Source of the DNA: Alphaproteobacteria bacterium
Lineage (GTDB): Bacteria > Pseudomonadota > Alphaproteobacteria > UBA828
NCBI GenBank assembly: GCA_009691045.1
Contig: SHWC01000013.1
Span: 1 to 39,449 of the forward strand
Direction: 5' to 3'
DNA: 39,449 bases
In this document: positions 9,390 to 28,505 of the stretch, in pieces
How the letters are laid out: each line of letters starts with the position of its first letter
Position numbering within the stretch: position 1 is the stretch's first letter
Program-made: the position numbers and the translations under genes
Notes under the pieces: model-generated
What the model saw: only the letters and a program-made list of their open reading frames with translations
Told to the model about the DNA's origin: nothing
Database searches by the model: none

Positions 9390-10496
9390 ATGAAGCTCGG
9401 ATTATTCATGATGCCGGTGAACGATCACCGGCGCGACACGCATGACGTGCTGATGGAAGATGTCGAAATCGCGGTGCGCGCCGATGCACTCGGCTTCGAC
9501 GAATTTTGGGTCGGCGAGCATTACACCACGCTGTCCGAGCCGGTGAGCTGCCCGTTTATTTTCCTGTCAAATCTGATCGCACGCACCAAGCGTATGAAGC
9601 TAGGCACCGGCGTGGTCAATCTGCCGCAGCGCCACCCGGTGCAAACGGCGGCCCATGCCGCGCTCCTCGATCATTTGAGCGAGGGGCGGTTGATCCTGGG
9701 CGTCAGCCCCGGCGGCCTCGCCAGCGATTTCGAGGCGTTCGGCATTACCGATCCGCTCGTGCGCCGTGAAATGGCGGTCGAGGCGGTCGACACGGTGCTC
9801 AAGCTCTGGCGCGCCGAAGCGCCGTTCGACATCAAGGGCAAATATTGGTCGGTAAGTTTGAAGGAGCATGTCTATCCCGAGATCGGCGTAGGCAAGGTGC
9901 TCAGGCCCTATCAATTGCCGCATCCGCCGATCGTGGCGTCCGCGATGAGCCCCAACTCAGCCACCACGCGCGGTGCCGGCGCACGCGGCTGGGGCATTAT
10001 CTCCGCCAATTTCGTGCCGGTCGAAAACATCAAAACGCATTGGCAGGGCTTCATCGAGGGCTGCCAGCAGGTTGGCCGCACGCCGCATGGCAGTGATTGG
10101 CGCGTCGCGCGCACCATCTTTGTTGGCGAGGATGATGACGAGGCCAAGGCCTATGTGCGCGACCCCAATGGCCCGTTCGCGCATTATTTCGGCTATTTGA
10201 TCACGCTCGTGAAGGGCGCCGGCTTCCACGCCATTCTGAAGGCAGACCCCGCCATGCCCGACGATCAATTAACGCCGGATTTCGCGTGCCGCACCATGGT
10301 GATCGCCGGCGATGCGGAATCGGTCGCCGCGCAACTCGTGACACTCAAACGCGAGATCGGCCCGTTCGGCACCATCCTGATGACCGCGACCGATCTGATA
10401 AACGGGCACCACAAAAAACGACTGCTCCGCTCGATGGCGTTGATGGCGAACGACGTCATGCCGCGCCTCAACGCCGCCCTCGCCCGCGAGAGATAA
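9390..10496 (+). CDS. Luciferase-like (LLM class) flavin-dependent oxidoreductase
   Basis: A 368-residue bacterial-luciferase-superfamily protein. The sequence begins MKLGLFMMPVN and shows family markers ADALGFDEFWVGEHY, KLGTGVVNLPQRHPVQTAAHAALLDHLSEGRLILGVSPGG, and RGWGIISANF. These proteins are TIM barrels that use reduced FMN supplied by a separate flavin reductase, or F420, to oxidise substrates such as alkanesulfonates, aromatic or chelator compounds. The substrate is unknown here. A flavin reductase-like gene is found at 24267-24797, too far away to infer partnership. No strong Shine-Dalgarno is seen (GAGAG is 13 bases upstream). It is convergent with the glutamine synthetase gene. Confidence 0.88.
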   Translation: MKLGLFMMPVNDHRRDTHDVLMEDVEIAVRADALGFDEFWVGEHYTTLSEPVSCPFIFLSNLIARTKRMKLGTGVVNLPQRHPVQTAAHAALLDHLSEGRLILGVSPGGLASDFEAFGITDPLVRREMAVEAVDTVLKLWRAEAPFDIKGKYWSVSLKEHVYPEIGVGKVLRPYQLPHPPIVASAMSPNSATTRGAGARGWGIISANFVPVENIKTHWQGFIEGCQQVGRTPHGSDWRVARTIFVGEDDDEAKAYVRDPNGPFAHYFGYLITLVKGAGFHAILKADPAMPDDQLTPDFACRTMVIAGDAESVAAQLVTLKREIGPFGTILMTATDLINGHHKKRLLRSMALMANDVMPRLNAALARER

Positions 10497-10638: not shown

Positions 10639-11985
10639 TCAATACACGTCGAGATATTCGTTGCGTTCCCAATCGGTGATGTGGCTGCGGAAGCGGTTGA
10701 GTTCATAACGCTTGACCACGCCGAACACCGAGATGAATTCCTCGCCGAGTAATTCACAAAGGCTCTTATCCGCCTCAAGCGCGGCCAGTGCATCCTCGAG
10801 CGAGCGCGGGAAGCGCGGCAGATTTGGGTTCTCCTCCGACGGCCCATCGGTCGAAGGTTGCAGAGGCCGCTTTTCCTTGAGCCCCAGAATCGCGCAAGCC
10901 AGCGTACCGGCGACCGTGAGATAGGGATTGGCCAGGCCTGACGGCACGCGGTTTTCTAAATGCATCGAAGGCTCTCCGGCATATTTGACGCGCACCATCG
11001 CGCTCCGATCTTCAACACCCCATGAAATATTCGACGGCGCGAAGGTGTGCGGCTTGAGCCGGTGATAGCAATTGGGCGTCGGCGCGAAGAGGGCCATGGC
11101 GGCGTGGCCATGATCCATCAGGCCTTGCACGAAATGACGCGCAGATGCCGACATATGATTGGCCGCACCCTTTTGCAGCATGGCGTTTTTGCCGGTCTTC
11201 TTATCGAGCAGGCTGATATGGAAATGCGCGCCACAGCCGGCGATATCGGGCGCGGGTTTTGACATGAACGTCGCGTTCAGCCCGGCCCGCGTAACGATCT
11301 CCTTCACCGCGTTCTTATAGGTGAAGGCGTTATCGGCCGCCTTCATTCCGGCTGTGTGGCGATAGACCAATTCGAACTGCGAGGCCGAGTACTCGACATT
11401 CGCCGTCATCATATCGAGCCCGGCCGCGCGCAGCTGGTTCATCAGCTCGCGGATGATCGGCAGCATCTCGTTCCGCGTGTTGTTGAAAATATGCACGCCG
11501 GGGAAGAGCGGCTTCTGCGTCTCGCGGTCGAGAATATAAAACTCGAACTCGTGCGCCATCTCGGCGACATAGCCGAGTCTGTCAAGCTCGGCCAAGAGCC
11601 GCCGCACAATGCGGCGCGGCGATGCTTCAAGCCACCTGCCGTTTTCCCACTGACCGTCGCAGATCAGTCGCCATGTCTTATCGAGCCAGGGCACGGGCGC
11701 CAATGTGTCGAAATCGGGCACGAGCCGTTGATCGGCATAATTCATCTGCTCGTTATAGAGCGCGCCGGGCACCACGGAGGAGGCCGTGTCGAGCGCGAGC
11801 ACGCCGCCATACATGTTGAGGCCGCCGCGCGCATAATGCTCGACGCGCTCGATCGGCACGAGTTTCGAGCGACCGATGCCATGAAGGTCAGGCGTCTCGA
11901 AGCGCACATAATCGGCGCCCTTCTTGCGCAGCTCGGTGACCATGCGCCCGATCGCATCGGCATTTTTCTTGGTCGTTTCAGCCAT
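10639..11985 (-). CDS. glnT: Type III glutamine synthetase family protein, probable gamma-glutamylmethylamide synthetase-like (GMAS)
   Basis: A 448-residue member of the GlnT/type III glutamine synthetase group, which includes gamma-glutamylmethylamide synthetases (methylamine + glutamate + ATP). Conserved pieces are EFEFYILDRETQ, ANVEYSASQFEL, GCGAHFHISLLD (metal and glutamate/ammonia site), and ENRVPSGLANPYL. The start at 11985 has GAGGGA spaced correctly upstream. It is last in a minus-strand series after mgsA-, mgsB- and mgsC-like genes, with 159 bases of repeat-bearing spacer before it. In methylamine users gmaS sits next to mgsABC, so context favours a GMAS-type activity. In rhizobia, however, the same cluster type is called glnT-glxBCD with less clear substrate. 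True substrate (ammonia, methylamine or another amine) is open. Confidence 0.85.
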   Translation of the reverse strand: MAETTKKNADAIGRMVTELRKKGADYVRFETPDLHGIGRSKLVPIERVEHYARGGLNMYGGVLALDTASSVVPGALYNEQMNYADQRLVPDFDTLAPVPWLDKTWRLICDGQWENGRWLEASPRRIVRRLLAELDRLGYVAEMAHEFEFYILDRETQKPLFPGVHIFNNTRNEMLPIIRELMNQLRAAGLDMMTANVEYSASQFELVYRHTAGMKAADNAFTYKNAVKEIVTRAGLNATFMSKPAPDIAGCGAHFHISLLDKKTGKNAMLQKGAANHMSASARHFVQGLMDHGHAAMALFAPTPNCYHRLKPHTFAPSNISWGVEDRSAMVRVKYAGEPSMHLENRVPSGLANPYLTVAGTLACAILGLKEKRPLQPSTDGPSEENPNLPRFPRSLEDALAALEADKSLCELLGEEFISVFGVVKRYELNRFRSHITDWERNEYLDVY

Positions 11986-12067
11986 CGAAGTCCCTCGACA
12001 CCACTAACGCAACTCTTCTTCGTATCCTTGGACGACTGATCGCGGCGTTGCGAACCTCGTCTCAGTT

Positions 12068-12120
12068 CCCTCTCCACCCCACCGGCGGAGAGGGACACTC
12101 CGCCTCCCCCTTCTCGGGGA
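12068..12120. repeat. Palindromic repeat inside the mgs/gln operon
   Basis: A short CCCTCTCC/GGAGAGGG hairpin followed by a CTTCTCGGGGAAGG hairpin lies in the 159-base gap between the mgsC-like gene and the glutamine-synthetase-like gene. It could partly terminate or stabilise mRNA between the two. Confidence 0.55.
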
Positions 12121-12144
12121 AGGGTGATCTTCGCGACACCCTTC

Positions 12145-13476
12145 TCAATAAGTCCGCCACGCCGGCACGCGACCGTTGAGGCCAACCATCGGCACGCCGG
12201 TCATCATCGAGGCCTCCATGGTAAGCGCCTTCATGTCATTGCCATCGAGGTCGTGCACGCGGTTCTTGCCGCAGGCGCGCGCGAACAACTGAATCTCCAT
12301 CGTCATCGCGTTCAGGAAATTGGCGACGCGCTCGGCACCCTCATCGGGGTCGAGCCGCTCGATCAGCCTCGGATATTGCGTGGTAATGCCGACCGGGCAA
12401 AGCCCAGTGTGGCAGTGATTGCACTCATAGGGCGTGGTGCCCATGCGGTGATAATCTTCGACATGGATCGGCCGATGGCAGCCGAGCGCGATCAAGGCCG
12501 CCGTGCCGATATAAACCACGTCGGCGCCGAGCGCGATGCACTTCGCGGCATCCGCGCCATTCCGAATACCGCCGCCGACGATCAGCTTGATGTCTTCCTT
12601 GAGCCCCATATCGCGCAAGGATTCGGCCGCCTCGGCAATCGCCGCGATGGTTGGAATGCCGGTGTGATCGAGTTGGATGGTGGGCGAGGCCGCGGTGCCG
12701 CCCTCCATGCCGTCGAATACAATGGCATCGACGCCCGCGCGCGCGATCAGCTTGATGTCGTCCGCGATACGCGACGCGCCGACCTTGACCGAAACCGGAA
12801 TTTCGTAGCCGACCGCCTCGCGGATCTGCTGGATCTTGACCGGCAGATCATCGGCGCCCATCCAATCCGGGTGGCGGCACGGCGTGCGTTGATCGACGCC
12901 CTCGGGCAAATCGCGCATGCGCGCCACTTCGGCCGAAACCTTGCTGCCGAGGAGCACGCCGCCGGTGCCCGGCTTGGCGCCTTGGCCGCACACCACCTCG
13001 ATCATATCGGCCTTGCGCATGTCATAGGGCGTCAGGCCATAGCGGCTCGGCAAATATTGATAGACGAGTTTGGCGGAGTTTTTGCGCTCCTCGGGGTGCA
13101 TGCCGCCATCGCCCGTGCAGGTCGAGATGCCGCATTTGGTCGCGGCGCGCCCGAGCGCGCGCTTGGCGTTGATCGAGAGCGCGCCGAAGCTCATGCCCGC
13201 GATCATGATCGGCCGATCCAAAACCAGGGGTCGTTTAACGCGGCCCTCGCCGATCACGACGCGCGTGTCGCACCGCTCGCGATAGCCTTCAAGCGGCATG
13301 CGCGAGAGTCCGGCCGGCACGAATACCAGATCGTCGAACGAGGGCAGATCGCGCCTTTTGGTCGCCTGACCGCGAATCTGGTAGCGACCGAGCTCGGCCT
13401 TTTCCTGGATCGATTCGATCGTGTCGGGCGACCAGATGCCGCTATAGGTCGCGTCCTTTAGAGGACGTCCTTCCAT
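12145..13476 (-). CDS. mgsC: N-methylglutamate synthase subunit C-like / FMN-binding glutamate synthase domain protein (GlxD-like)
   Basis: A 443-residue protein matching the FMN-binding domain of glutamate synthase, a TIM barrel. Visible are the GMSFGALSINAKRALGRAA and GDGGMHPEER segments, VCGQGAKPGTGG, SVKVGASRIADDIKL, and the Cys cluster CNHCHTGLCPVGITTQ, the expected Fe-S site. In N-methylglutamate synthase, this subunit transfers the alkylamino or amino group to 2-oxoglutarate at the FMN site. Its start overlaps the end of the mgsB-like gene by 19 bases, so the genes are coupled. It is the third of three genes that together correspond to the split-up domains of a glutamate synthase large subunit. 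Confidence 0.87.
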   Translation of the reverse strand: MEGRPLKDATYSGIWSPDTIESIQEKAELGRYQIRGQATKRRDLPSFDDLVFVPAGLSRMPLEGYRERCDTRVVIGEGRVKRPLVLDRPIMIAGMSFGALSINAKRALGRAATKCGISTCTGDGGMHPEERKNSAKLVYQYLPSRYGLTPYDMRKADMIEVVCGQGAKPGTGGVLLGSKVSAEVARMRDLPEGVDQRTPCRHPDWMGADDLPVKIQQIREAVGYEIPVSVKVGASRIADDIKLIARAGVDAIVFDGMEGGTAASPTIQLDHTGIPTIAAIAEAAESLRDMGLKEDIKLIVGGGIRNGADAAKCIALGADVVYIGTAALIALGCHRPIHVEDYHRMGTTPYECNHCHTGLCPVGITTQYPRLIERLDPDEGAERVANFLNAMTMEIQLFARACGKNRVHDLDGNDMKALTMEASMMTGVPMVGLNGRVPAWRTY

Positions 13477-14162
13477 ACCTCGAACTCCTTCTTGTCGAAG
13501 TGCCAGAGCGAGCGGTCGGACTCGACCTTGCTAAAACTCTTGGGCGCTTTGATCTTGTATTTATCGAGCGTGGCGTAGAGGTCGTCGCGTTCGGCGGCAT
13601 CGATATCGGCGTAGCGACAGCCAGAGCCGATCGCGTGAATCTGCCCGCCGACATAAATCGCGCCCTGATACATCGAATCACCCAGCGCATCGCCGGTATT
13701 GCCGCAGATGATCAGGCGCCCCTTTTGCATGAAGAAGCCGGTCATGTAGCCCGCATCGCCACCGACGATCAGCTCGCCCGATTTGAGCCCGATCGCCGAG
13801 CGCGGGCCGACCGAGCCTTTGACCACCACCGTGCCGCCACGGAGCGATGGCGCCGCCGCGGTCGCGGCATTGCCGTGCACCACCACTTCGCCCCGAATCA
13901 GATTGTCGCCAATGCCCCACCCGGCCGAACCATGGATCTCCGCCGTCACTTGGTCGGATAGCGACACCGCGTAATAGCCGACATCGCCTTTATAGATGAG
14001 ATGGATCGGATCGGTGATCGCGACGCCGAGATTGTGCCGCGCCATCGGGTGCTCGATCTCGACGGTTTTGACGCCATTCTTCGCCGCGTCGCGGATCGCG
14101 ATATTGAGTTGCGTGACCGACAGTTTGTTGCCGTCGAGCGTGATCTTATCAGCCTTGCTCAT
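13458..14162 (-). CDS. mgsB: N-methylglutamate synthase subunit B-like / GXGXG domain protein (GlxC-like)
   Basis: A 234-residue protein made of the glutamate synthase C-terminal GXGXG beta-helix domain. The repeat is seen in GGTVVVKGSVGPRSAIG, GELIVGGDAGYMTGFF and GRLIICGNTGDALGDSMYQG. In glutamate synthases this domain is structural, holding the amidotransferase and FMN domains together. The frame is open to 14234, but the ATG at 14162 overlaps the upstream stop as ATGA and gives the N-terminus MSKADKITLDG, so I choose it. It sits between mgsA- and mgsC-like genes with overlapping ends on both sides, which makes a three-subunit complex likely. Confidence 0.87.
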   Translation of the reverse strand: MSKADKITLDGNKLSVTQLNIAIRDAAKNGVKTVEIEHPMARHNLGVAITDPIHLIYKGDVGYYAVSLSDQVTAEIHGSAGWGIGDNLIRGEVVVHGNAATAAAPSLRGGTVVVKGSVGPRSAIGLKSGELIVGGDAGYMTGFFMQKGRLIICGNTGDALGDSMYQGAIYVGGQIHAIGSGCRYADIDAAERDDLYATLDKYKIKAPKSFSKVESDRSLWHFDKKEFEVWKDVL

Positions 14163-15061
14163 TGCAGCCGCCAGGTCGTGACCGTGCCGGCGCCGGGCTC
14201 GAACACATTCACCTCGCGCTGCACGCCCTCGCAAATCGCCCAGGCATCGGACGCGATGGCGATGAAATCATCGGTCTCGGCCACCACCATGGGCTTCGCG
14301 GCATAGCGATCCTTCACCAGCGCGACTTCGTTGCCGTGGATCGCGACATAGGTGAAGCAGCCATCGACGATATCGATCGTTGAATTCAACGCCTCTTTGA
14401 AAGAGGCGCCCTGGCTCATCTCATGCCAGAGCACCGCGCAGAGAATCTCGGAATCGTTTTTCGTGGTGAATCGATAGCCCTTCTTGTTTTGATAGAGCCA
14501 GCGCAGGCGGTGATAATTGGTGATGTGGCCATTGTGCATGACGACCAAATCGCGCGTGCCGCGCGCCGACAAAGGCTGCGCATGGGTAAAGTCGATCGCG
14601 CTTTCGGTCGCGAAGCGCGTCAAGCCGATCGCGACGCGCCCCTCATAGGCCGAGAGCTTGAATTTGGTTTCAAGATTGACGACGCCACCCAGATATTTCA
14701 GCACTTCGATGTGCGAACCGATGCTGGCGCAGGTCACGCCATTGCCGAGCCCGTCAATGGCATCGACCAAGGCGTCGTCCTTGCCCTTATAGCTGATCGC
14801 GGCACGAATATAGCCATCGCTGTCATTCGCCGATTTGACCCGGCCCAGTTCATCCAACAGTTCGATCACCTTGGGGCCCATGCCCGCTTTCTCGACATTG
14901 ACGCCGACATAGGTCAAATCCTCGTCATTGTCTTGCCAGAGCGCGACGCCAGTCGAGTTCGGCCCGCGCCGATAGATGCTGTTCAGAATCCGATAGGCGA
15001 TATCGCCGGTCTTCTTACCATGCAGGCGCGATTTGAAAACAATGCCACCAATGCCGCACAT
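14159..15061 (-). CDS. mgsA: N-methylglutamate synthase subunit A-like / class II glutamine amidotransferase (GlxB-like)
   Basis: A 300-residue class II (Ntn-type) glutamine amidotransferase. It begins MCGIGGIVF, so Cys2 becomes the N-terminal nucleophile after Met removal. RRGPNSTGVALW, GLTRFATES, MHNGHITNYHRLRW and TKNDSEILCAV are the expected glutaminase landmarks. In N-methylglutamate synthase, the homologous subunit would hydrolyse the amide of gamma-glutamylmethylamide (or glutamine). GGCGGAG stands about nine bases upstream of the ATG. It is followed directly by the mgsB- and mgsC-like genes and preceded, after 294 bases of repeats, by an unknown gene. Identification as a GATase is sure; methylamide rather than glutamine as the donor is inferred from context. 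Confidence 0.88.
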   Translation of the reverse strand: MCGIGGIVFKSRLHGKKTGDIAYRILNSIYRRGPNSTGVALWQDNDEDLTYVGVNVEKAGMGPKVIELLDELGRVKSANDSDGYIRAAISYKGKDDALVDAIDGLGNGVTCASIGSHIEVLKYLGGVVNLETKFKLSAYEGRVAIGLTRFATESAIDFTHAQPLSARGTRDLVVMHNGHITNYHRLRWLYQNKKGYRFTTKNDSEILCAVLWHEMSQGASFKEALNSTIDIVDGCFTYVAIHGNEVALVKDRYAAKPMVVAETDDFIAIASDAWAICEGVQREVNVFEPGAGTVTTWRLQ

Positions 15062-15116
15062 GCTCGCCGCTCCGCCGATTGTTAGGGCGATCGTGTTGTC
15101 TTGCGGCGGACGTGTC

Positions 15117-15265
15117 CGAGCCCCCTCTCCCCTTGCGGGAGAGGGGGGGACCCATTGCGCAGCAATGGGAGGGTGAGGGGGCAGAGAATAGCATGATTGG
15201 AACCCCTCACCCGCTCCCCTCGGGGCTTAGCCCGAGGGTCGCCTCCTCTCCCGCAAGGGGAGAGG
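15117..15265. repeat. Double palindromic repeat module inside the operon
   Basis: Two back-to-back modules: CCCCTCTCCCCTTGCGGGAG with CCCATTGCGCAGCAATGGG and GGTGAGGGG, then CCCCTCACCCGCTCCCCTCG, CGGGGCTTAGCCCGAGG and TCTCCCGCAAGGGGAGAGGG. They occupy most of the 294-base gap between the unknown gene at 15356-15835 and the mgsA-like gene. A strong structure within the presumed operon could lower expression of the mgs genes relative to the two leading genes. Confidence 0.75.
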
Positions 15266-15355
15266 GGTAAGAAGGAATGCCGCATTGTTGCCATGCGTTT
15301 CTCACCACAAGAGGACAGGTGAAGATATGAGAGGTCTCGCACATCTCGTCTTCCC

Positions 15356-15835
15356 TCAACGCAGCGCAGGCGTGAGCTTGAGTTTGCGATCAAGCGCCGC
15401 CCACGGAATCAGACCATCGATCCAGGTATTGACGCGATCGAGCGCGATCATGATGGCGTGCGCCACATCGACGAACTCGCGGTGGCTCTTCGCGCCACCA
15501 TTCGAGAAATATCCGACGATCTCGTTCATCAATTTGACCGTGTTGGCCATCTTCCATTTGCCGAGCCGGGCCGCATGCCGTGTCACCAACGCGGCCGCCG
15601 CGCGATTGAGCTCAGCCACCGGCATCTCGCCCTTGCGCGCGAGATCGCGCAGCACCTGCATGTTCTCGCCGAGCCAGAACGTATCGAAATTGGCGTAGAT
15701 GACGCACGGCAACGTGCCCATTGGCGGCCGTTTGAAGCGGCGCAGCGCCTTGATATCGGACGGCTCGGTCTTCCAATTCTTTTTGGTGAAGGTCTCGAGC
15801 CGCGCAATCATGTCAGTCGTGTTGGTGATGGCCAT
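15356..15835 (-). CDS. Unknown protein, second gene of the mgs-type operon
   Basis: A 159-residue protein I do not recognise. It has no signal peptide or membrane segment, looks mostly alpha-helical, and has a basic N-terminal third (ETFTKKNWKTEPSDIKALRRFKRPP), a single Cys in TLPCVIYANFDTFWLGENMQ, and an alanine-rich helix region (AELNRAAAALVTRHAARL) followed by KWKMANTVKLMNEIVGYF. GAGGAGG stands seven to eight bases before the ATG at 15835, so this start is strong even though the frame is open further upstream. It follows the DUF3830 gene by only 11 bases and precedes the mgsA-like gene, so it likely belongs to the same pathway; whether it is an accessory subunit or a chaperone is unknown. 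Confidence 0.8.
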   Translation of the reverse strand: MAITNTTDMIARLETFTKKNWKTEPSDIKALRRFKRPPMGTLPCVIYANFDTFWLGENMQVLRDLARKGEMPVAELNRAAAALVTRHAARLGKWKMANTVKLMNEIVGYFSNGGAKSHREFVDVAHAIMIALDRVNTWIDGLIPWAALDRKLKLTPALR

Positions 15836-15846
15836 GATGCGCCTCC

Positions 15847-16230
15847 TCAAGCCGCGCGAATCTGGGCCTTGATCGGCCCCGAGCTCAGGATTTTCTTGCC
15901 CGCCGCCTTGCACGCCGGCAGGCCATCGACGACGCGGGCGAACAACGAGACCCGCCCGAACGGCGTGACATCACCATAAAAAATACAAATGGTTTGCCGG
16001 CCAGGGTAATAGCCGATGTCGCCGGCCTTGACGTTCAAGATCTCGTTCTCGGAATCGGCATAGAACGGCACCATGATGATCAGCTCGTCGCCCGCGAACT
16101 TCGCATGGGTCGAAAACGAATCGCAGGGCAGGCAGTCCGCAAAGGCCGCCGATACGCGCGGCGCCTGGTCGTCCAAGAGCTCCGCGGTGACCGTGCGGCC
16201 CGCGATTTTCATCGTGAAGCGACGCGCCAT
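15847..16230 (-). CDS. DUF3830 (cyclophilin-like fold) protein, first gene of the mgs-type operon
   Basis: A 127-residue protein that I match to DUF3830, a family with a cyclophilin-like beta-barrel fold and unknown function. Typical parts are FTMKIAGRTVTAELLDDQAP, the LPCDSFSTHAKFAGDELIIM stretch, DIGYYPGRQTICIFYGD and PFGRVSLFARVVDG. No signal peptide. Two in-frame ATGs exist at 16236 and 16230; GGAGGA immediately abuts the first and is seven bases from the second, so 16230 is preferred. It is the promoter-proximal gene of the minus-strand operon, divergent from an ABC transporter ATPase gene across a 349-base control region. A role as a small-molecule binding or enzyme accessory protein for the amine pathway is only a guess. 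Confidence 0.8.
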   Translation of the reverse strand: MARRFTMKIAGRTVTAELLDDQAPRVSAAFADCLPCDSFSTHAKFAGDELIIMVPFYADSENEILNVKAGDIGYYPGRQTICIFYGDVTPFGRVSLFARVVDGLPACKAAGKKILSSGPIKAQIRAA

Positions 16231-16370
16231 GATCATTCCTCCGGCCAGGTTAAGGCGCCCTCATTTGCGGGGTCGGCGCGGTCAGGTAGCGGCCAACCCT
16301 CATGTCCGAGAACGGCAACCGGATAACACAGCCGCAAGACCGCTGCAACGGACGAGCGGGCAAGGTTTGT

Positions 16371-16383: not shown

Positions 16384-16448
16384 GCGTCGCTCGGTGCTCG
16401 ACATCGCGCCGTAAAACCACACGTTATGCCGCATGCTGAGCCAGGCCA

Positions 16449-16463
16449 TCTGGTATGACCAGA
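16449..16463. promoter_or_regulatory. Putative GntR/FCD operator, site 2
   Basis: TCTGGTATGACCAGA is a perfect 15-base dyad (six-base arms around ATG) with core TGGT-ATG-ACCA. It lies about 117 bases upstream of the ABC ATPase start. With site 1 it brackets the middle of the divergent control region 16231-16579, so one regulator could act on both operons. The regulator is probably the GntR protein encoded at 18745-19479. I cannot assign -35/-10 boxes in this region with confidence. Confidence 0.6.
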
Positions 16464-16579
16464 CATCAAAAAGGGGTCGGCCATCGCGCACTGTGCTTGA
16501 ATCGCGCCATCGGCTCTGTAAGCATGAGGCCAAGACCAAAGCGTTCAAGGATCAGGGTTCGGGGGGACCAGGGGAGCCA

Positions 16580-17395
16580 ATGAACCAGGCCCAGGCAACC
16601 GAGACCGTGCCGCGTCCCTTGCTCGCCTGCGAGGGCGTCAGCAAGCACTATGGCGCCGTGGCCGCGGTCAGCAATTTGAGCCTCGATGTGCGGCCGGGTG
16701 AAGTTTTGGGCATTGGCGGGCCGAACGGGGCTGGCAAGACCACGCTGTTTGACGTGATCACGGGCCTGACCGCGCTCGATCAGGGCCGCGTCATGTTCGA
16801 TGGTCGCGATATCACCAACGCCAAGCCGCAAACCCTCTGCCATATGGGGCTTGTGCGCACCTTCCAGCTCAATGCCGGCTATGACACCTTGACCGCGCGC
16901 GACAATGTGTTGGTTGGCGCCTATTTCGGCCACCGCAATATCGTAATCCCGGGTCTGCGTCTCAGTGCGCAGGCCAAACGCCGGGCCGAGGCCGCGATGG
17001 ATTTGGTTGGCCTGGCCGATATACGCAACACCGTGGTCAAAACCCTGCCGGTCTATCAACGCAAGCTTCTGATGATGGCGAGCGCGCTCGCCAGCGAACC
17101 CAAGCTCCTGATGATGGACGAGCCGGTCGGCGGGCTGAACCCGCATGAGATCGACGATGTGATGAAGCTGGTCGAGCGCGTGCGCGGCGCGGGCATCACC
17201 ATCGTGCTGATCGAGCACGTCATGCGCTTTCTGGTCGCGCTCTCCGATCGCGTGATGATCATGCATCATGGCGAAAAAATTTATGAGGGCTCCTCGGCGG
17301 GCCTGGTGCGCGACAAGACCGTGGTCGAGGTTTATCTCGGCACGGGCGCCTCGCTGCGTCTGAAAAATCTTATCGAGGAGCGCCAGGCCAGATGA
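16580..17395 (+). CDS. Branched-chain amino acid-type (LivG-like) ABC transporter ATPase
   Basis: A 271-residue ATPase of the HAAT/LIV importer family. Walker A is GGPNGAGKTT, the Q-loop region is VRTFQLNAGYDTLTARDNVLVG, Walker B is LLMMDEPVGGLNP, and the switch His lies in IVLIEHVMRFL. The signature motif, LSxGQ in most members, is replaced by LPVYQRK, which is odd. GGGGAG at 16571-16576 supports the start at 16580, although the frame is open upstream to 16433. The stop is overlapped by an ATG (ATGA at 17392-17395), as in an operon where another gene used to follow directly, but no LivF is present: 459 bases of repeats follow instead. Substrate unknown; amine, amide or amino acid uptake is suggested by the neighbouring operon. 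Confidence 0.88.
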   Translation: MNQAQATETVPRPLLACEGVSKHYGAVAAVSNLSLDVRPGEVLGIGGPNGAGKTTLFDVITGLTALDQGRVMFDGRDITNAKPQTLCHMGLVRTFQLNAGYDTLTARDNVLVGAYFGHRNIVIPGLRLSAQAKRRAEAAMDLVGLADIRNTVVKTLPVYQRKLLMMASALASEPKLLMMDEPVGGLNPHEIDDVMKLVERVRGAGITIVLIEHVMRFLVALSDRVMIMHHGEKIYEGSSAGLVRDKTVVEVYLGTGASLRLKNLIEERQAR

Positions 17396-17854: not shown

Positions 17855-18739
17855 ATGGAATCCTTCATCCAGATCATCGTCAGCGGTCTGTTGCTGGGCT
17901 CGATGTATGCGGTGAGCGCGGTCGGGCTGTCGCTGCTATGGGGCGCGCTGGGGATGCTTAATATGGCGCATGGCGCGCTGCTCACGGTTGGCGCCTATGC
18001 GTGCTATGCCGCGGTCGTCAGCGCCGGCCTGCCCAATTGGCTCGGCCTGCCGCTTGCCATGCTGGCGAGCTTCGCCTTTGGGCTTTTGATGTACTACGCC
18101 GTGGTGCGCTGGATGTATCAGCGCCAAGGCTTCGAGACCAACATCATCCTCGCCACCATCGGCCTCGCCATGGTGTTCGAGAATGTGGTGTTGAAATTGT
18201 TCGGCGCCTATCCGGTGGCGCAGCCCTTTGGGGTCGACCGCTCGATCGGCTTTGAGATCGGCACCGTGTTCGTGCCCTGGCAAAACGTCGTGATCATCGC
18301 GGTCAGCGCGGTGCTCATGTTGGCGATCGCCGGCGTGCTGCGCGCAACACGCATGGGCCGCGCGATTCGCGCCACCGCGCAAAGCCGCGAGGCCGCGCTT
18401 CTGATGGGCGTGCCGGTTGCGCGCGTGTTCGCCCAGGTCATGGGCATATCGGGCATCGTCGCCGCCGTTTCGGGCGTGATGATTTCATCGATCACCACGC
18501 TCGCGCCGACCATGGGCTATGACCCGATGATGAAAGCCTTCATCGTTTGCGTGGTGGGCGGGCTCGGCAATGTGCCTGGCGCGTTCTTCGCCGCCTTCGC
18601 GCTTGGCCTGATCGAGGCCGGCGTGCAATTCGGCGCCGGCACGCGCTTTGGTTATCCGGCGCTGCTCGTTCTCGTCATCATCGCGCTTCTGTGGCGCCCC
18701 TATGGCGTGTTCGGCCGACGCGCGGTGGTGAGGGTCTGA
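17855..18739 (+). CDS. Branched-chain amino acid-type (LivH-like) ABC transporter permease
   Basis: A 294-residue inner-membrane permease of the LIV/HAAT family with about eight hydrophobic segments. Typical markers are SGLLLGSMYAVSAVGLSLLWGALGMLNMAHGALL at the N-terminus, the cytoplasmic coupling region RATRMGRAIRATAQSREAALLMGVPVARVF, and FIVCVVGGLGNVPGAFFAAFALGLIE near the end. It follows the ATPase gene after a repeat-rich gap and precedes the GntR gene by five bases. No LivM-like permease, LivF ATPase or periplasmic binding protein is in the window, so the transporter is either completed elsewhere or is a relic. No strong Shine-Dalgarno precedes the ATG. Confidence 0.9.
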   Translation: MESFIQIIVSGLLLGSMYAVSAVGLSLLWGALGMLNMAHGALLTVGAYACYAAVVSAGLPNWLGLPLAMLASFAFGLLMYYAVVRWMYQRQGFETNIILATIGLAMVFENVVLKLFGAYPVAQPFGVDRSIGFEIGTVFVPWQNVVIIAVSAVLMLAIAGVLRATRMGRAIRATAQSREAALLMGVPVARVFAQVMGISGIVAAVSGVMISSITTLAPTMGYDPMMKAFIVCVVGGLGNVPGAFFAAFALGLIEAGVQFGAGTRFGYPALLVLVIIALLWRPYGVFGRRAVVRV

Positions 18740-18744
18740 ACGCG

Positions 18745-19479
18745 ATGGCAACCAACCCCAATACGCTCGGCCCGGTGCGCGCCACGATTTCAGGCGCGAC
18801 CTATCAGAGCCTCCGTGAGGGCATCGCGGCCGGGCGTTTTCCGCCCGGCAGCCGCTTGCCGAGCGAGCGCGATTTGGCCGACCGCATGGGCGTGAGCCGC
18901 CCGGCGGTGCGCGAAGCGGTGCGCCAATTGGTCGGGCAGGGGCTGATCGAGATCAAACCGCGCCGTGGGGTTTATGTGCGCGCCGCCGGCGAACTCGGCC
19001 TTGGCGATGCCTTCTCGCAGTTGATCGGCACGGATTTCGATCGCGTGATGGAATTGCTCGAGGTCAGGCGCGCGCTTGAAACGCGCTCGGCCTTTCTCGC
19101 CGCGCAATACGCCACCGCTGCCGATATTGACGAACTCACACGCATCTATGCCGATCTCGCGCGCGACAATGAATTGCGCGCAACCGGCGATGACGCCGAT
19201 GTGCGCTTCCATTGCGCCATCGCCGCCGCGGCCGGCAATACGGTGCTCACCCATATGATGGCGACGCTGCATGGCGCGCTGGTCAAAGCCGCGCGTCTGC
19301 TCGCCTCGCGCCTGATGGACAGCGAGCATTATCGGAACGAGATGTTCGCCATCCACACCCGTATTTTCGAGGCGATCAAAGAGCGCAAACCCAAAGCCGC
19401 CTCCGCCGCCATGGATGCCCATTTCGCGTTTGTGCAACGCGAATTGACGCATTACAGAAGAAAAAGTGGGGAAGGTTGA
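18745..19479 (+). CDS. GntR-family (FadR/FCD) transcriptional regulator
   Basis: A 244-residue DNA-binding regulator. Residues about 15-78 form the GntR winged helix (GSRLPSERDLADRMGVSRPAVREAVRQLVGQGLIEIKPRRGVYV). The rest is a helical FCD effector domain with the metal-binding Asp/His set visible in DVRFHCAIAAAAGN, IHTRIFEAIKE and AMDAHFAFV. FCD members typically sense carboxylates or amino acid-related ligands. It begins five bases after the permease stop with GAGGG upstream, so it is in the same transcript. The paired TGGT-N3-ACCA dyads at 16371 and 16449 are likely targets, making it an autoregulator and a regulator of the divergent mgs-type operon. Confidence 0.9.
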   Translation: MATNPNTLGPVRATISGATYQSLREGIAAGRFPPGSRLPSERDLADRMGVSRPAVREAVRQLVGQGLIEIKPRRGVYVRAAGELGLGDAFSQLIGTDFDRVMELLEVRRALETRSAFLAAQYATAADIDELTRIYADLARDNELRATGDDADVRFHCAIAAAAGNTVLTHMMATLHGALVKAARLLASRLMDSEHYRNEMFAIHTRIFEAIKERKPKAASAAMDAHFAFVQRELTHYRRKSGEG

Positions 19480-21336: not shown

Positions 21337-23595
21337 TTAACTGAACGGCGCAGGACCGATAAACCGCTTCAACACATTCCCCGTCATGCGCGCGACATTG
21401 TTCTTGTACTTGTTGTGGCTGAGCGAGCCGGCCCAGGCGATCGAGCTGGTGGCGAACACCGCGCCGCCCGACGCCAGCTCATAAAACACGATATCGGCGC
21501 GCACGAGTTCGTTCTCCTGGCCACCGAGGCCCGGATAGTTGATCAACAATTCCTCGCACACCACGAGATAGATGTTGGTGTGGTTCTCGGAGGAGGCGAG
21601 CACGAGCGCGTTGGGCGGCGTGCCCAATAGGCGATCCGCGCGATCGAGCTCAAGGCCGGCCGCGCCATCGCCAACCAGCCCGAAATTACCGATCAGCTCA
21701 TCGGGCTTGATGCCTTTCATAATAAACGCGGCGCGTGGGTTTTTGGCGTCCGGCTTCTGGCGGTAATAGGACGAGATGTCGAACCCTTGGGCCGAAAAGC
21801 CGGTGCCGGCGGTCGTTTGCGGCGCGCGGCCATTGCGCCGCCAGAGCCCGCCATATTCGCCGGTGAAGCTGTGATAATACTCGCCCGTGCGCGCCTCCCA
21901 GGCGCGGATGCCGCCCTCATTGCGCCGCACCTCCATGCAACCGGGCACGCTCTTGTGGAACGCGACGCGCCAATAGAAGCCATTGGCGCCGAGATACATC
22001 AGGCGCCCGCCTTTGGCCTTGAAGGCATCGAGCGCATCCAGCATTTCCTTGCTGAAATATTCCGGGTGGGTCGAAGTGATCAGCACTTGATGGTTCTCGA
22101 TCACCGAGAGCCCTTCGTGGTGCAAATCCTCGTCACTCACCACGTCATAATCGGTGCCGGTCGATTCCAGCCAATCGATGATGTGGGTATCGGCATTGAA
22201 TTGCCAAAGGCCCGAGCCCTTGCCGCCGAGCCAGCACGAATATTTCGGCCGCATATTGAGCACCGGGCGAAGCCGCGAGGAATAGCACACGCCCGAGCCA
22301 TCTGAATGCACATCATAGCACGACGCGCCATATTCGCGGTGCTGATCGAGATACATGTTCTGCGCCGAAAGCAGCGAGAGCTTGCCGGTCAAAAGCTGCG
22401 CGAGCGGCGCGTCGGTCGCCATGCGCTCATTGGCATAGGCGAGATAACTCGCGCTCGGCAACAGAAACACCGCCTTTGCGGTGGCTTTGCCGCGCGGTGG
22501 GCGCACCGCGAACGGCACATAGTCTTCCGTATCGCCCGCGCGCAGCCGTATCGCATAGAGCCCGCTTCTCAGCGTCTTCGGCACGCTGAAGGTGAAATCG
22601 ACCTCCCATTCCGCATCGATCACATCGTCATCGTGAAAATAGATCGCGCCATAGAGCTGGGGCGCGTGGTGCCAATTCATTTCGCTGCCGTCCCAATTGT
22701 GCCCGGTCATCGCACGCGCCGGCATTTGCACGATTCGGCCGTGCAGGCGGTTGGGCCCGATATCGTGGATGGTGGTCGTGGTGATGCCGACCGAAAAATC
22801 CCACACGCCCACCAGATCGGCCATTAAGTGCGAGGGGATCGGCCCCTGCGCGGCCTCCATCATTTCGGCGCGATTCAGCACGCGGTTCGCGATGCGCGGG
22901 CGATCGATCTTGCCGTTGAAGTGGCCTTTGCAGACCACGCGGCCTTTATCTATTTCGTTGAAATAGGCCCCGAAGACCAGCGGGCAGTCATGACTACCAA
23001 CCGATTTCAACGTCGACTTCTTTTTCACGAAGGCGTGATCATCGGTCCGGCCATGAGATTTAAGCGGTTCCTGATAGAGCTTCACCTCTTTGGTCTTGGC
23101 GTCGTAGGAGACCGCTACGAAATACCATTCGCGCGCGACCAAGGGCTTGCCGGAATTGATCACCTCGATCTTGCCCTCGTCATCGCCGAGGCAAACCGCG
23201 AGCGAGCCATCGCGCTTGGTGATGATCAGCGCGAGGCCGGTTTTTTTCGGCACTTCGCGCCAATAGGAGATGATTCCTTGCGTGCCCTTGGTCGGCGTGG
23301 ACGGCCAAATATAGGCCTGGAGCGTGAAGCTCTCGAGGCCTTCGAGCGCGGGCGCCGAGGCGACACAGGCAAAGGAGCCGGCATGGATCGTCTGTTTGCG
23401 GCCCTTATAGGTTTTGCTCGCCGATGATTTGACGACCGTCTCTTGAAAACCGGGGCCTTCGGGGTTCTCGTCGCCGCAGCGCAGGCGCACGAGATCGGCT
23501 TTGTATTTCGGTCCCGCTTCGCAATTGACCATGAAGCTGATGTCTTCGCCCGGCACGACGCTGATTTTGTCGGCATAGGCCGTGAGCTTGAGCAT
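21337..23595 (-). CDS. dmfA2: N,N-dimethylformamidase-family large (beta) subunit
   Basis: A 752-residue protein matching the large subunit of dimethylformamidase, which hydrolyses DMF to formate and dimethylamine. Residues about 85-245 are a LamG/concanavalin-like domain (SFTLQAYIWPSTPTKGTQGI, DRPRIANRVLNRAEM). The C-terminal half is the catalytic region with HPEYFSKEMLDALDAFKAKGGRLMYLGANGFYWRV. Known DMFase has a mononuclear iron bound by two Tyr and one Glu; candidate equivalents are Y387 (SYLAYANER), Y427 (SCYDVHSDGSG) and E512 (STHPEYFS), assigned by eye. The ATG at 23595 has GGGAG eight bases upstream. The small-subunit gene lies directly upstream in the operon. Related enzymes in soil bacteria may act on other amides. 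Confidence 0.87.
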   Translation of the reverse strand: MLKLTAYADKISVVPGEDISFMVNCEAGPKYKADLVRLRCGDENPEGPGFQETVVKSSASKTYKGRKQTIHAGSFACVASAPALEGLESFTLQAYIWPSTPTKGTQGIISYWREVPKKTGLALIITKRDGSLAVCLGDDEGKIEVINSGKPLVAREWYFVAVSYDAKTKEVKLYQEPLKSHGRTDDHAFVKKKSTLKSVGSHDCPLVFGAYFNEIDKGRVVCKGHFNGKIDRPRIANRVLNRAEMMEAAQGPIPSHLMADLVGVWDFSVGITTTTIHDIGPNRLHGRIVQMPARAMTGHNWDGSEMNWHHAPQLYGAIYFHDDDVIDAEWEVDFTFSVPKTLRSGLYAIRLRAGDTEDYVPFAVRPPRGKATAKAVFLLPSASYLAYANERMATDAPLAQLLTGKLSLLSAQNMYLDQHREYGASCYDVHSDGSGVCYSSRLRPVLNMRPKYSCWLGGKGSGLWQFNADTHIIDWLESTGTDYDVVSDEDLHHEGLSVIENHQVLITSTHPEYFSKEMLDALDAFKAKGGRLMYLGANGFYWRVAFHKSVPGCMEVRRNEGGIRAWEARTGEYYHSFTGEYGGLWRRNGRAPQTTAGTGFSAQGFDISSYYRQKPDAKNPRAAFIMKGIKPDELIGNFGLVGDGAAGLELDRADRLLGTPPNALVLASSENHTNIYLVVCEELLINYPGLGGQENELVRADIVFYELASGGAVFATSSIAWAGSLSHNKYKNNVARMTGNVLKRFIGPAPFS

Positions 23596-24266: not shown

Positions 24267-24797
24267 ATGCCGTTTTTCGAGGATTTCGCGCTCGACACGC
24301 TGCCCGAGCTAAAAGCCGTCGATCCGGCCTCGTTCAAGCAGGGCATGCGGCTGCTGTCAGCCGGCGTGACCATCGTCACAACCGCGATCGGCTCGAGCCG
24401 GATCGGGCTAACCGCGACCGCCGTCTGCTCGCTCAGCGCCGAGCCCGCGACGCTGCTCGCCTGCGTCAATCGCGAGGCCGGCGCGCATGACCCGACGCTG
24501 CAATCCAAGGTCTTCTGCGTCAACGTGCTGGGGCTCGGCCATCTCGACCTCGCCAAACTATTCGCCGATCGCACGCGCGTGCCCGAACGCTTCAATCACG
24601 GCGAATGGGGCACGCTGAATACCGGCGCGCCGGTGTTGATGGATTCGCTTGTCAGCTTCGATTGTTTGCTCGGCCAAACCTTTCGGGCCGAAACGCACAC
24701 GGTGTTGATTGGCCGCGTGCAGGCCGTGCGCTCATCGCCCAATCAACGCCCGCTGCTTTATGCCAATGGCAAATTCGGCAGCTTTGACGAGGCGTAG
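24267..24797 (+). CDS. Flavin reductase-like FMN-binding protein
   Basis: A 176-residue split-barrel flavin reductase of the HpaC/RutF type. Markers are FKQGMRLLSAGVTIVTTAIG, GLTATAVCSLSAEPATLLACVN (flavin-binding), and FCVNVLGLGHLDLAKLFA. The protein ends YANGKFGSFDEA. Such enzymes supply reduced flavin to two-component monooxygenases. It is divergently oriented from the DMFase small subunit across 176 bases; a shared promoter region is plausible. No monooxygenase is next to it; the LLM-class enzyme at 9390-10496 is a remote candidate partner. Confidence 0.88.
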   Translation: MPFFEDFALDTLPELKAVDPASFKQGMRLLSAGVTIVTTAIGSSRIGLTATAVCSLSAEPATLLACVNREAGAHDPTLQSKVFCVNVLGLGHLDLAKLFADRTRVPERFNHGEWGTLNTGAPVLMDSLVSFDCLLGQTFRAETHTVLIGRVQAVRSSPNQRPLLYANGKFGSFDEA

Positions 24798-25969: not shown

Positions 25970-26785
25970 TTAATAAAAGCGCTCGATCTTGCGGAAATTA
26001 GGATCCGTTAACACTTGATCAAGCGCATTAGCGATCAACGCGGCCCAACGCGCGGCACCGTCATCGCTTTCGATCAAATCTTGGCGCACCTCGATCTCGA
26101 TATGCGGCAGGCCACGTCTCTGGCCGTGCACGGGGATCGAATAGTCGGATGGGCCCTTGATCGCATAGGGCTCGTTTTCGCCGATGGTGAGGGTGGGATC
26201 GAGCGTGAGGAACGCGCGCTTCAGCGGCGCAACCAGCCGGCGATCATGCTCGAACAAAAGGCCGAGCTGCCAGGGTCGGGCGACGCCGTTCATGGCCGGC
26301 GTGAAACTGTGCATCGAAACAAGAATGGGGATTTGGCGCAGTGCTGCCAAATGACCCTCGATGAAATTCGAAAGCGCCTGATGATAGGGCGCGAAGAAGA
26401 ACGCCTGGCGCAGAGCGCGCTCGCTCGCGCTCAAATTCTGATTGGCCGGGATGACGCTGCCATCGCTTGTGAGCGGGATCGAGGTCGGTGATTCGAGCGG
26501 CCGATTACAGTCGATGATCAGGCGTGAATAGCCCGAGAGAAAGGCCGGGCAGCCTTTACGCGCGGCGAGCTGGCGCGTCACGGCGGCCGCGCCGATGTCC
26601 CAGCCGATATGGCGGTCGAGCTCTGCCTGGGCGAGGCCGAGCCGTGCCATATGGGCCGGCACGGCGTTTGAGGCGTGGTCGCAGCAGAGGATGAGCGAGG
26701 CATCGCCCTTCGGGTTGATCACCTCGAAGGGCGGCGGGTCGCTGGCGCTGAGGTGGGCGGGGTCGAAGGCGGTCGAGGCGGTCAT
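25970..26785 (-). CDS. N-formylglutamate amidohydrolase-family protein
   Basis: A 271-residue zinc-dependent hydrolase of the N-formylglutamate amidohydrolase (HutG-like) family. Conserved stretches are LILCCDHASNAVPAHMARLGL, HIGWDIGAAAVTRQLAARKG, YSRLIIDCNRPLESPTSIP, VSMHSFTPAMNG and HIEIEVRQDLIESDDGAARWA. The family cleaves formyl or other N-acyl groups from glutamate and relatives. A frame opens 5 codons upstream with TTG; I choose ATG at 26785, which has no strong ribosome-binding site. No histidine-degradation genes are nearby. With DMFase, HyuA/HyuB and an isochorismatase-fold enzyme around it, a role in amide-nitrogen salvage is reasonable but unproven. Confidence 0.85.
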   Translation of the reverse strand: MTASTAFDPAHLSASDPPPFEVINPKGDASLILCCDHASNAVPAHMARLGLAQAELDRHIGWDIGAAAVTRQLAARKGCPAFLSGYSRLIIDCNRPLESPTSIPLTSDGSVIPANQNLSASERALRQAFFFAPYHQALSNFIEGHLAALRQIPILVSMHSFTPAMNGVARPWQLGLLFEHDRRLVAPLKRAFLTLDPTLTIGENEPYAIKGPSDYSIPVHGQRRGLPHIEIEVRQDLIESDDGAARWAALIANALDQVLTDPNFRKIERFY

Positions 26786-26873
26786 ACCGGGCCGAATCAA
26801 GGGACGCCATCATGATAGGGCGCCGCGCCAAAATCGGCTACACTAAGGCGCGATCACCGCCCGGGCATTTTTC

Positions 26874-26955: not shown

Positions 26956-27008
26956 GAAAAAAACCGAGCACGTCGAAAACGGTTTATGTGCAAACGGAGG
27001 AGACCCTC

Positions 27009-27680
27009 ATGACCGCTCAATCCTGGCCGACCACGCGCGATTTGCCGCTCTTGCCCGGACGTTCGGCGCTTCTGATTGTCGATGTGCAAAACTATTGCGC
27101 ACACCGCAATGGCGGTGAATTCAACGGCCTGACGCCCACCGAGTTCGAGGCACGCTTCGGCGGGTTCTTCACGCAATTCGAACGCACCGCGCTGCCGAAC
27201 CTAAAACGCCTGATCGCGTCTTGCCGCGCCGCCGGAATCGAGGTGATGTTCACCACGATCGAGAGCCTGACCAAGGATGGGCGCGACCGCAGTCTGGATT
27301 ACAAGATTACCGGCTTCAACGTGGCCAAGGGCTCCTGGGATGGCAAGGTAATCGACGCCATCGCGCCTTCTGACGACGAGATTGTCATTCCGAAATCGTC
27401 ATCGAGCGTCTTCAACTCGACCAATATCGATTATGTGCTGCGCAATTTGGGCGTTGAGCGGCTCGCCATTGCCGGCATCTATACCGACCAATGCGTCGAG
27501 GGCGCGGTGCGCGATGCGTGCGACAAGAATTATCTGGTCACGCTGGTCGCGGATGCCTGCGCGACCTATACGCGCGAGCGCCATGATAATTCGCTAAAGG
27601 CGCTCAAAGGCTATTGCCGCACCGTCACGACCGACCAGATTGTCGCCGAACTCCAAGGCGCCCAACGCAAAGCGGGGTAG
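27009..27680 (+). CDS. Isochorismatase-fold cysteine hydrolase (N-carbamoylsarcosine amidase-like)
   Basis: A 223-residue cysteine hydrolase. The family triad is visible as D25 (LLIVDVQNYC), K129 (IVIPKSSSSVF) and C162 (IYTDQCVEGAVRDA). Members hydrolyse isochorismate, nicotinamide, ureidoacrylate or N-carbamoylsarcosine. The ATG at 27009 is preceded by CGGAGGAG, so it is preferred to the GTG at 26988. The nearby HyuA/HyuB operon makes an N-carbamoylsarcosine-type amidohydrolase attractive, since N-methylhydantoinase makes that substrate, but biuret- or ureidoacrylate-type activity is equally compatible with the sequence. It is a single-gene unit in front of higBA. Confidence 0.88.
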   Translation: MTAQSWPTTRDLPLLPGRSALLIVDVQNYCAHRNGGEFNGLTPTEFEARFGGFFTQFERTALPNLKRLIASCRAAGIEVMFTTIESLTKDGRDRSLDYKITGFNVAKGSWDGKVIDAIAPSDDEIVIPKSSSSVFNSTNIDYVLRNLGVERLAIAGIYTDQCVEGAVRDACDKNYLVTLVADACATYTRERHDNSLKALKGYCRTVTTDQIVAELQGAQRKAG

Positions 27681-28163: not shown

Positions 28164-28505
28164 ATGGTTACTAAGCGAAAGACTCGACGCCTTCCCCCGA
28201 TCCATCCGGGCGAGTTTCTGCGCGAAGATTTTCTGGTACCGCTCGACATGAGCGTGAACGCGCTTGCGGTGAAAATCGGCGTGCCGCGCGCACGGCTGAA
28301 TGACATCGTCAATGAGAAGCGCGGCATTAGCGCCGATACCGCGCTCAGGCTCGGGCGCTATTTTGGTATGTCGCCAGAAATATGGCTCGGTTTTCAGCAG
28401 CAATATGATCTTGAAACCACAAATCGAGCGATTGGCCTCGCGCTCAAGGCGATCAAGCCACGCCGGATGAAAAAGCCGGCCGGCGTGGACGCCACCGCCG
28501 CCTAA
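28164..28505 (+). CDS. higA: HigA antitoxin (XRE family)
   Basis: A 113-residue HigA-type antitoxin. It opens with a basic tail then IHPGEFLREDFLVPLDMSVNALAVKIGVPRARLNDIVNEKRGISADTALRLGRYFGMSPEIWLGFQQQYDLE, the standard helix-turn-helix body. The C-terminal tail RRMKKPAGVDATAA is basic and unstructured. It would bind HigB and repress the promoter via the TGTAATGA dyads upstream. GAGGG lies about ten bases before the ATG. Its last four bases overlap the end of the opposite-strand hyuB gene, so the two transcripts converge with no room for a terminator between them. Confidence 0.93.
   Translation: MVTKRKTRRLPPIHPGEFLREDFLVPLDMSVNALAVKIGVPRARLNDIVNEKRGISADTALRLGRYFGMSPEIWLGFQQQYDLETTNRAIGLALKAIKPRRMKKPAGVDATAA

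Follow-up and report, generated by a model that had tools for sequence, protein, structure and literature searches.

An N-methylglutamate-synthase-type operon in Alphaproteobacteria led by a gene pair resembling a split enzyme of the cucumopine synthase/McbB/KslB superfamily

Introduction

The cucumopine synthase/McbB/KslB family comprises ring-forming enzymes that make the opine cucumopine and beta-carbolines, and McbB, KslB and the cucumopine enzymes are familiar from the synthesis of alkaloids and opines. The substrates of KslB are L-tryptophan and 2-oxoglutarate, which it condenses (PMC12513458), and N-methylglutamate synthase (NMGS) moves an amine onto 2-oxoglutarate (PMC6237917). Both kinds of enzyme therefore act on an amine together with 2-oxoglutarate. 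The locus described here lies in the window, the whole stretch of 39,449 nucleotides that was analysed, and brings likenesses to both together in one operon. The operon is real, is conserved across an order of Alphaproteobacteria and is a variant of the N-methylglutamate-synthase-type operon.

Organization of the operon

Six minus-strand ORFs were confirmed within positions 10639-16230, all in the order given by an earlier sequence-only reading and with Pfam matches that fit it. From the leading gene onwards, and with the spacer between the second and third genes, the features are as follows.

15847-16230, minus strand: DUF3830/cyclophilin-like protein of 127 aa (PF12903, PF04126, PF18050), proposed beta-domain subunit of a Pictet-Spenglerase-like enzyme divided over two genes
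15356-15835, minus strand: 159-aa helical protein (sub-threshold PF18631; hhalign; Foldseek), proposed second subunit
15062-15355, no strand: spacer of 294 bases that holds a dispersed inverted repeat twice and reaches this length in the window's genus alone
14159-15061, minus strand: MgsA/GlxB-like class II glutamine amidotransferase subunit (GATase_6 PF13522, E 2.8e-19), with a Cys2 nucleophile in its MCGIGG start
13458-14165, minus strand: MgsB/GlxC-like GXGXG subunit (PF01493, E 7.7e-13)
12145-13476, minus strand: MgsC/GlxD-like FMN and Fe-S glutamate-synthase-type subunit (Glu_synthase PF01645, E 2.5e-97)
10639-11985, minus strand: glutamine-synthetase-fold ligase (Gln-synt_C PF00120, E 1.6e-85)

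For the DUF3830 gene, the family alignment favoured the ATG at 16230, the start given by the sequence-only reading, over the ORF caller's possible start at 16236, since homologues begin MAxRF. The tight linkage first reported holds for the two leading genes, which are separated by an 11-base gap, and not for the 159-aa gene and mgsA, which lie 294 bases apart. Within the spacer the repeat occurs at 15124-15145 and 15244-15265. This dispersed inverted repeat (CCCTCTCCCGCAAGGGGAGAGG) was found in 8 copies across window positions 5151-39322 at no more than 3 mismatches, with 0 expected by chance. As the distance from the 159-aa gene to mgsA is only about 15-46 bases outside the window's genus, the spacer is, on this comparison, a late insertion within the genus and does not in itself point to two transcription units, and joint transcription across it is likely. 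The spacer was also considered as a terminator and rejected, with no minus-strand terminator-like site inside it and a count of such sites at chance level.

The two leading genes

The DUF3830 protein matched PF12903 with an E-value of 3.5e-13 (50.2 bits against a Pfam cut-off of 26) and also passed the cut-offs of PF04126 (Cyclophil_like) and PF18050 (Cyclophil_like2). Solved relatives found by sequence in the PDB were 3kop and TM1367. Judged by these matches the protein has a cyclophilin-like fold, and it carries the cyclophilin-like domain expected of the cucumopine synthase/McbB/KslB superfamily, an assignment that holds at the superfamily level only. Its AlphaFold model, built from a two-sequence alignment, reached a pLDDT of 38 and was too poor for a fold search. 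No account of DUF3830 was found in the literature library searched.

The sole Pfam match of the 159-aa protein was to the cucumopine synthase helical bundle (PF18631), which spanned most of its length. The E-value was 7e-5 for the window's protein, and two relatives from the genus gave 2e-5 to 3e-5. These matches scored 23-25 bits against a gathering cut-off of 27, and every other member tested was likewise sub-threshold; at an E-value of 0.01 the model matched 4 of the 11 members of the 159-aa family, and across 398 genomes of the phylum it matched the window alone. When a structural model of the protein (pLDDT 69, from a shallow alignment of the window and one related locus) was compared with 350,542 PDB chains using Foldseek, ranks 1-21 were all McbB/KslB Pictet-Spenglerases, with probabilities of 0.92-1.0, E-values of 0.02-0.7 and a TM-score of about 0.5. 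Sequence searches of the PDB with the protein or with the 11-member profile returned no Pictet-Spenglerase. From its Pfam and fold matches, the 159-aa protein looks remotely related to the helical bundle of cucumopine synthase.

Fused homologues of the pair were found as single proteins of 285-307 aa on plasmids of the Rhizobiaceae Neorhizobium and Shinella and in genome G114. The N-terminal half of these proteins aligned with the DUF3830 family (hhalign E 1.8e-6, P 90%) and the C-terminal half with the 159-aa family (E 2.1e-9, P 96%). Both domains of one fused protein (L004) also matched KslB, weakly and with the order swapped, and a profile of the fused family gave weak matches only against the PDB. 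The two domains are encoded here by two genes, and form one polypeptide only in the distant homologues. It should be noted that the fused products of the Neorhizobium and Shinella plasmids (L006, L007) are annotated as hypothetical, and that nearby genes encode a 579-aa B12-binding protein, a GntR regulator, an importer of the Liv type and an oxidase of the DAO type. No mgs trio was found beside the fused homologues at the Shinella, Neorhizobium and G114 loci.

Because the two domains form one polypeptide in other bacteria, the leading genes seem to encode an enzyme of the cucumopine synthase/McbB/KslB superfamily in split form, with its domains as separate subunits. The lines of evidence from sequence and from the model agree on a two-domain architecture divided over two genes, each line being sub-threshold or shallow when taken alone. 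The two leading proteins had been described as being of unknown function; by Pfam, hhalign and Foldseek they are instead matched to the two domains of this superfamily.

Conservation of the gene order

The 159-aa gene was detected in 14 of the 21 genomes examined from the window's family and in a fifteenth carrier, G673, from another family of the same order. It lies directly upstream of an mgsA of the window's clade in all 15 carriers of the order, and the DUF3830 gene lies directly upstream of it in every carrier except G661, where a remnant of the 159-aa protein (residues 67-159 only) adjoins mgsA without DUF3830. The assemblies of G662, G664 and G665 are broken inside the locus, and G664 and L005, apparently one genome as both have a contig of 20,551 bases, were counted once. 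Genomes of the family without the MgsB clade of the window all lacked the 159-aa gene. In a sample of 385 genomes of the class, the profile of the 159-aa family found only the window's family and one marginal match; apart from remote matches, the pair was absent from the other genomes of the sample.

Kept across 15 genomes and two families, the gene order is far beyond chance, and the idea that the pair is a mere hitch-hiker was ruled out by this linkage. A neighbourhood check on co-occurrence, set beforehand as a refuting test of the sequence-only reading, found the pair beside mgsA in 15 of 15 carriers (in G661 as a remnant), and the first description, a variant of the N-methylglutamate-synthase operon headed by two additional genes, is supported. 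Two genomes, G196 and G659, have kept the trio without the pair. As they are sisters in the trio tree (support 98), one loss of the pair is suggested. From G196, G659 and G661 it would appear that in some species the trio can do without the pair, or else that these loci are decaying.

The strict linkage directly upstream of mgsA would also suit a non-catalytic pair, whose proteins would be accessory subunits on the trio or the ligase and might, for example, seal an amine tunnel. Cyclophilin-like proteins whose activity is unknown are common, and a catalytic role of the pair is a prediction only. However, alignments across four genera show many invariant polar residues in both leading proteins, both halves match one fused enzyme superfamily, and the trio persists without the pair in two genomes, so that this reading is considered unlikely.

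Genomic neighbourhood

The genes flanking the operon that bear on its function are as follows.

16433-17395, plus strand: LivG-like ABC ATPase, divergent from the operon, probable importer of the substrate used by the pathway, seen in the window's genus only
17855-18739, plus strand: LivH-like permease (PF02653), conserved in G081 and G664
18736-19479, plus strand: GntR/FCD regulator (PF00392, PF07729), retained next to the operon in genera g1 and g2
21337-23595, minus strand: amidohydrolase like the large subunit of N,N-dimethylformamidase (PF20254, E 1e-100), candidate amine source
9390-10496, plus strand: luciferase-like monooxygenase
24267-24797, plus strand: flavin reductase
25970-26800, minus strand: N-formylglutamate-amidohydrolase-like protein
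26988-27680, plus strand: isochorismatase-like protein

The LivG-like ABC ATPase is likely to take part in import of the pathway substrate, and the GntR/FCD regulator is 62-85% identical in relatives. The formamidase-like gene is linked to the operon in G081, G660, G663, G661, G196 and G659, and is on the contig of G662. Genus g2 has instead an S15-type hydrolase, a GntR regulator, an ABC importer and two class III aminotransferases in the flank. The window also contains hydantoinase A/B genes, and several of these genes of the window are linked to the operon in g2 as well. Two hydantoinase-B/oxoprolinase-type genes (28502-30223 and 30451-32172, minus strand) lie in tandem, encode proteins of 573 aa each that are 60% identical, and adjoin one hydantoinase A; by their sequences the tandem is a local duplication.

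Genes for a luciferase-like monooxygenase and a flavin reductase, together with N-formylglutamate-amidohydrolase-like and isochorismatase-like genes, form a set that occurs in N-heterocycle ring opening. Trigonelline- or pyridine-type ring opening by the monooxygenase and flavin reductase was considered and set aside, as was an imidazole (histidine-derived) substrate, with no support found for either beyond gene content.

A second locus in the same genus, in G081 (L065, G081:C1:97000-112000), was found to encode a formamidase-like protein 47% identical to that of the window, beside a trio of another clade, and also a GS-like ligase, a DAO-type oxidase and a GntR regulator. The pairing of a formamidase-like hydrolase with ligase and trio occurs twice, and therefore the linkage would favour assimilation of a released amine.

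The mgs-like trio and the ligase

The trio contains the glutaminase, GXGXG and FMN glutamate-synthase subunits of the N-methylglutamate pathway. Identity to the canonical proteins was 29-33% for the MgsA-like subunit (against MgsA/GlxB), 30-37% for the MgsB-like subunit (against MgsB/GlxC) and 55-57% for the MgsC-like subunit (against MgsC/GlxD). A tree of concatenated MgsA, MgsB and MgsC sequences resolved four clades, namely the canonical one, that of the window and two more in the same family. The window's clade was monophyletic (support 100, branch 0.64) and sister to the canonical MgsABC/GlxBCD clade, itself monophyletic (support 100, branch 0.68) and represented by Methylobacterium DM1, R. 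etli, Cupriavidus and one copy in G664, these references being annotated homologues and not assayed proteins. As placed by this tree, the trio is a sister clade of N-methylglutamate synthase and not a member of it. A further mgs-like trio clade, followed by a glutamate-synthase-like fragment, was observed in five genomes of the family (L064, L067, L069-L071).

The ligase gene follows mgsC in genera g1 and g409, in most g2 genomes and in G673; in genus g410 it is on another contig, and in G659 it was not found. On the type III GlnT model (TIGR03105) the ligase scored 236 bits (range 236-257) against a cut-off of 469.6, whereas three canonical GlnT/GmaS proteins used as positive controls scored 629-697 bits. 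It is 27-30% identical to canonical GlnT, and the GlnA, GlnT and PuuA (gamma-glutamylputrescine synthetase) models give it similar scores. In a PDB search with the ligase, several plain glutamine synthetase structures outscored the methylamine ligases 9qur and 7cql. On these scores the ligase belongs to an unassigned clade; by the curated model it is not GlnT/GMAS, and the GMAS name is not supported. The sequence-only reading had called it a GMAS/GlnT-like synthetase, a label that in its specific sense these scores do not bear out.

These placements bear on whether the operon encodes the ordinary methylamine N-methylglutamate pathway (GMAS and NMGS), with the leading pair as passengers or regulators. 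For it speak the position of the trio, which is the one of the four trio types found that is sister to canonical NMGS, the linked dimethylformamidase-like gene, and the SoxB-type (MgdA-like) homologues present at other places in this genome and in related genomes. With such homologues elsewhere, the earlier observation that mgdABCD is absent from the window, which agrees with the ORFs scanned, is uninformative alone. However, the ligase fails the GlnT/GMAS model and is distant from canonical GlnT, pair and trio stay together in two families, and G664 has a window-type locus alongside a separate canonical-clade mgsABC. We regard this reading as improbable. Because the trio is a sister clade of NMGS and the ligase reaches about half the GlnT/GMAS cut-off, a variant pathway is supported by the sequences and a methylamine pathway is not. 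The suggestion that another amine is used fares well on the same two points, and the substrate is probably an amine other than methylamine.

A diverged GS/GOGAT system acting on ammonia, with the pair serving some unrelated catabolic step in which the glutamate so formed is consumed, would fit the near-equal ligase scores on the GlnA, GlnT and PuuA models and the GOGAT parts of the trio (glutaminase, GXGXG and FMN domain), but many other GS and GOGAT-like genes are present in the same cells and the neighbourhood is catabolic and includes a GntR regulator and importer genes of its own, which leaves this the least probable reading.

Proposed pathway

In the preferred reading, plausible but tentative at a little short of an even chance, the operon is an amine-assimilation module akin to, and distinct from, the N-methylglutamate pathway, and its leading pair is a two-subunit enzyme of Pictet-Spenglerase/cucumopine-synthase type. 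It builds on the gene content, the conserved order, the two-domain homology with fused relatives and the separate trio and ligase clades. Counting against it are the sub-threshold PF18631 scores, the Foldseek E-values from a model of moderate pLDDT, the lack of a Pictet-Spenglerase among PDB sequence matches to the 159-aa profile, the trio loci in which the pair is missing or reduced to a fragment, and the ligase on another contig in g410. An amine would be imported, or released, possibly by the formamidase-like hydrolase as its linkage suggests. The ligase, going by its fold, would join the amine to glutamate to give a gamma-glutamyl amide. The Cys nucleophile of MgsA would then free the amine, and MgsB and MgsC would pass it to 2-oxoglutarate by reductive addition, the product predicted from homology to NMGS/GOGAT being an N-substituted glutamate. 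The DUF3830 and helical pair may act on the Schiff base of the amine and 2-oxoglutarate or on a ring-closed adduct, and would close or open a ring as cucumopine synthase and KslB do on an amino acid and 2-oxoglutarate, a role proposed from superfamily membership.

It is possible, though doubtful at present, that the locus represents an undescribed amine-assimilation pathway. In it, central nitrogen metabolism would employ a heteromeric Pictet-Spenglerase-like enzyme, alongside a dedicated gamma-glutamyl-amide ligase and a trio like NMGS, to build or break down an opine-type adduct between an amine and 2-oxoglutarate. A split relative of the alkaloid and opine enzymes, kept next to an operon of N-alkylglutamate type throughout an alphaproteobacterial order, would give DUF3830 proteins a testable role and tie Pictet-Spengler-type imine chemistry to amine use in environmental bacteria. 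It should also be noted that mgsABC-like genes in metagenomes should be taken as a sign of methylamine use only where a GlnT-type ligase accompanies them.

Comparison with known systems

The closest operons are mgsABC-gmaS and the rhizobial glxBCD-glnT, which share with the window an amidotransferase, a GXGXG subunit, an FMN subunit and a GS-fold ligase in the same order, with MgsC at 55-57% identity. They differ in that the window's trio falls in a separate clade, its ligase fails the GlnT/GMAS model and two additional genes lead the operon. R. etli has soxBDA adjoining glxBCD-glnT, whereas the window's operon is without mgd or sox genes.

For the leading pair, the fused 285-307 aa homologues offer the same two parts, with an N-terminal half like DUF3830 and a C-terminal half like the 159-aa protein, but as a single gene and with no mgs trio found alongside. 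McbB and KslB (PDB 3x27, 9ns6, 9k0a) likewise combine helical and cyclophilin-like domains and supplied the top 21 fold matches for the 159-aa model; they are single polypeptides with the helical domain first, whereas two genes in the opposite order are present here, and their sequence similarity to the pair is below significance. The cucumopine/mikimopine synthase family (PF18631) is matched over the full length by the 159-aa proteins (E 2e-5 to 7e-5) and, by its Pfam name, has the helical bundle at the C-terminus, the same arrangement as the operon order. It differs from the pair described here, which scores below the gathering cut-off, is split into two genes and lies in an amine-assimilation operon rather than on T-DNA.
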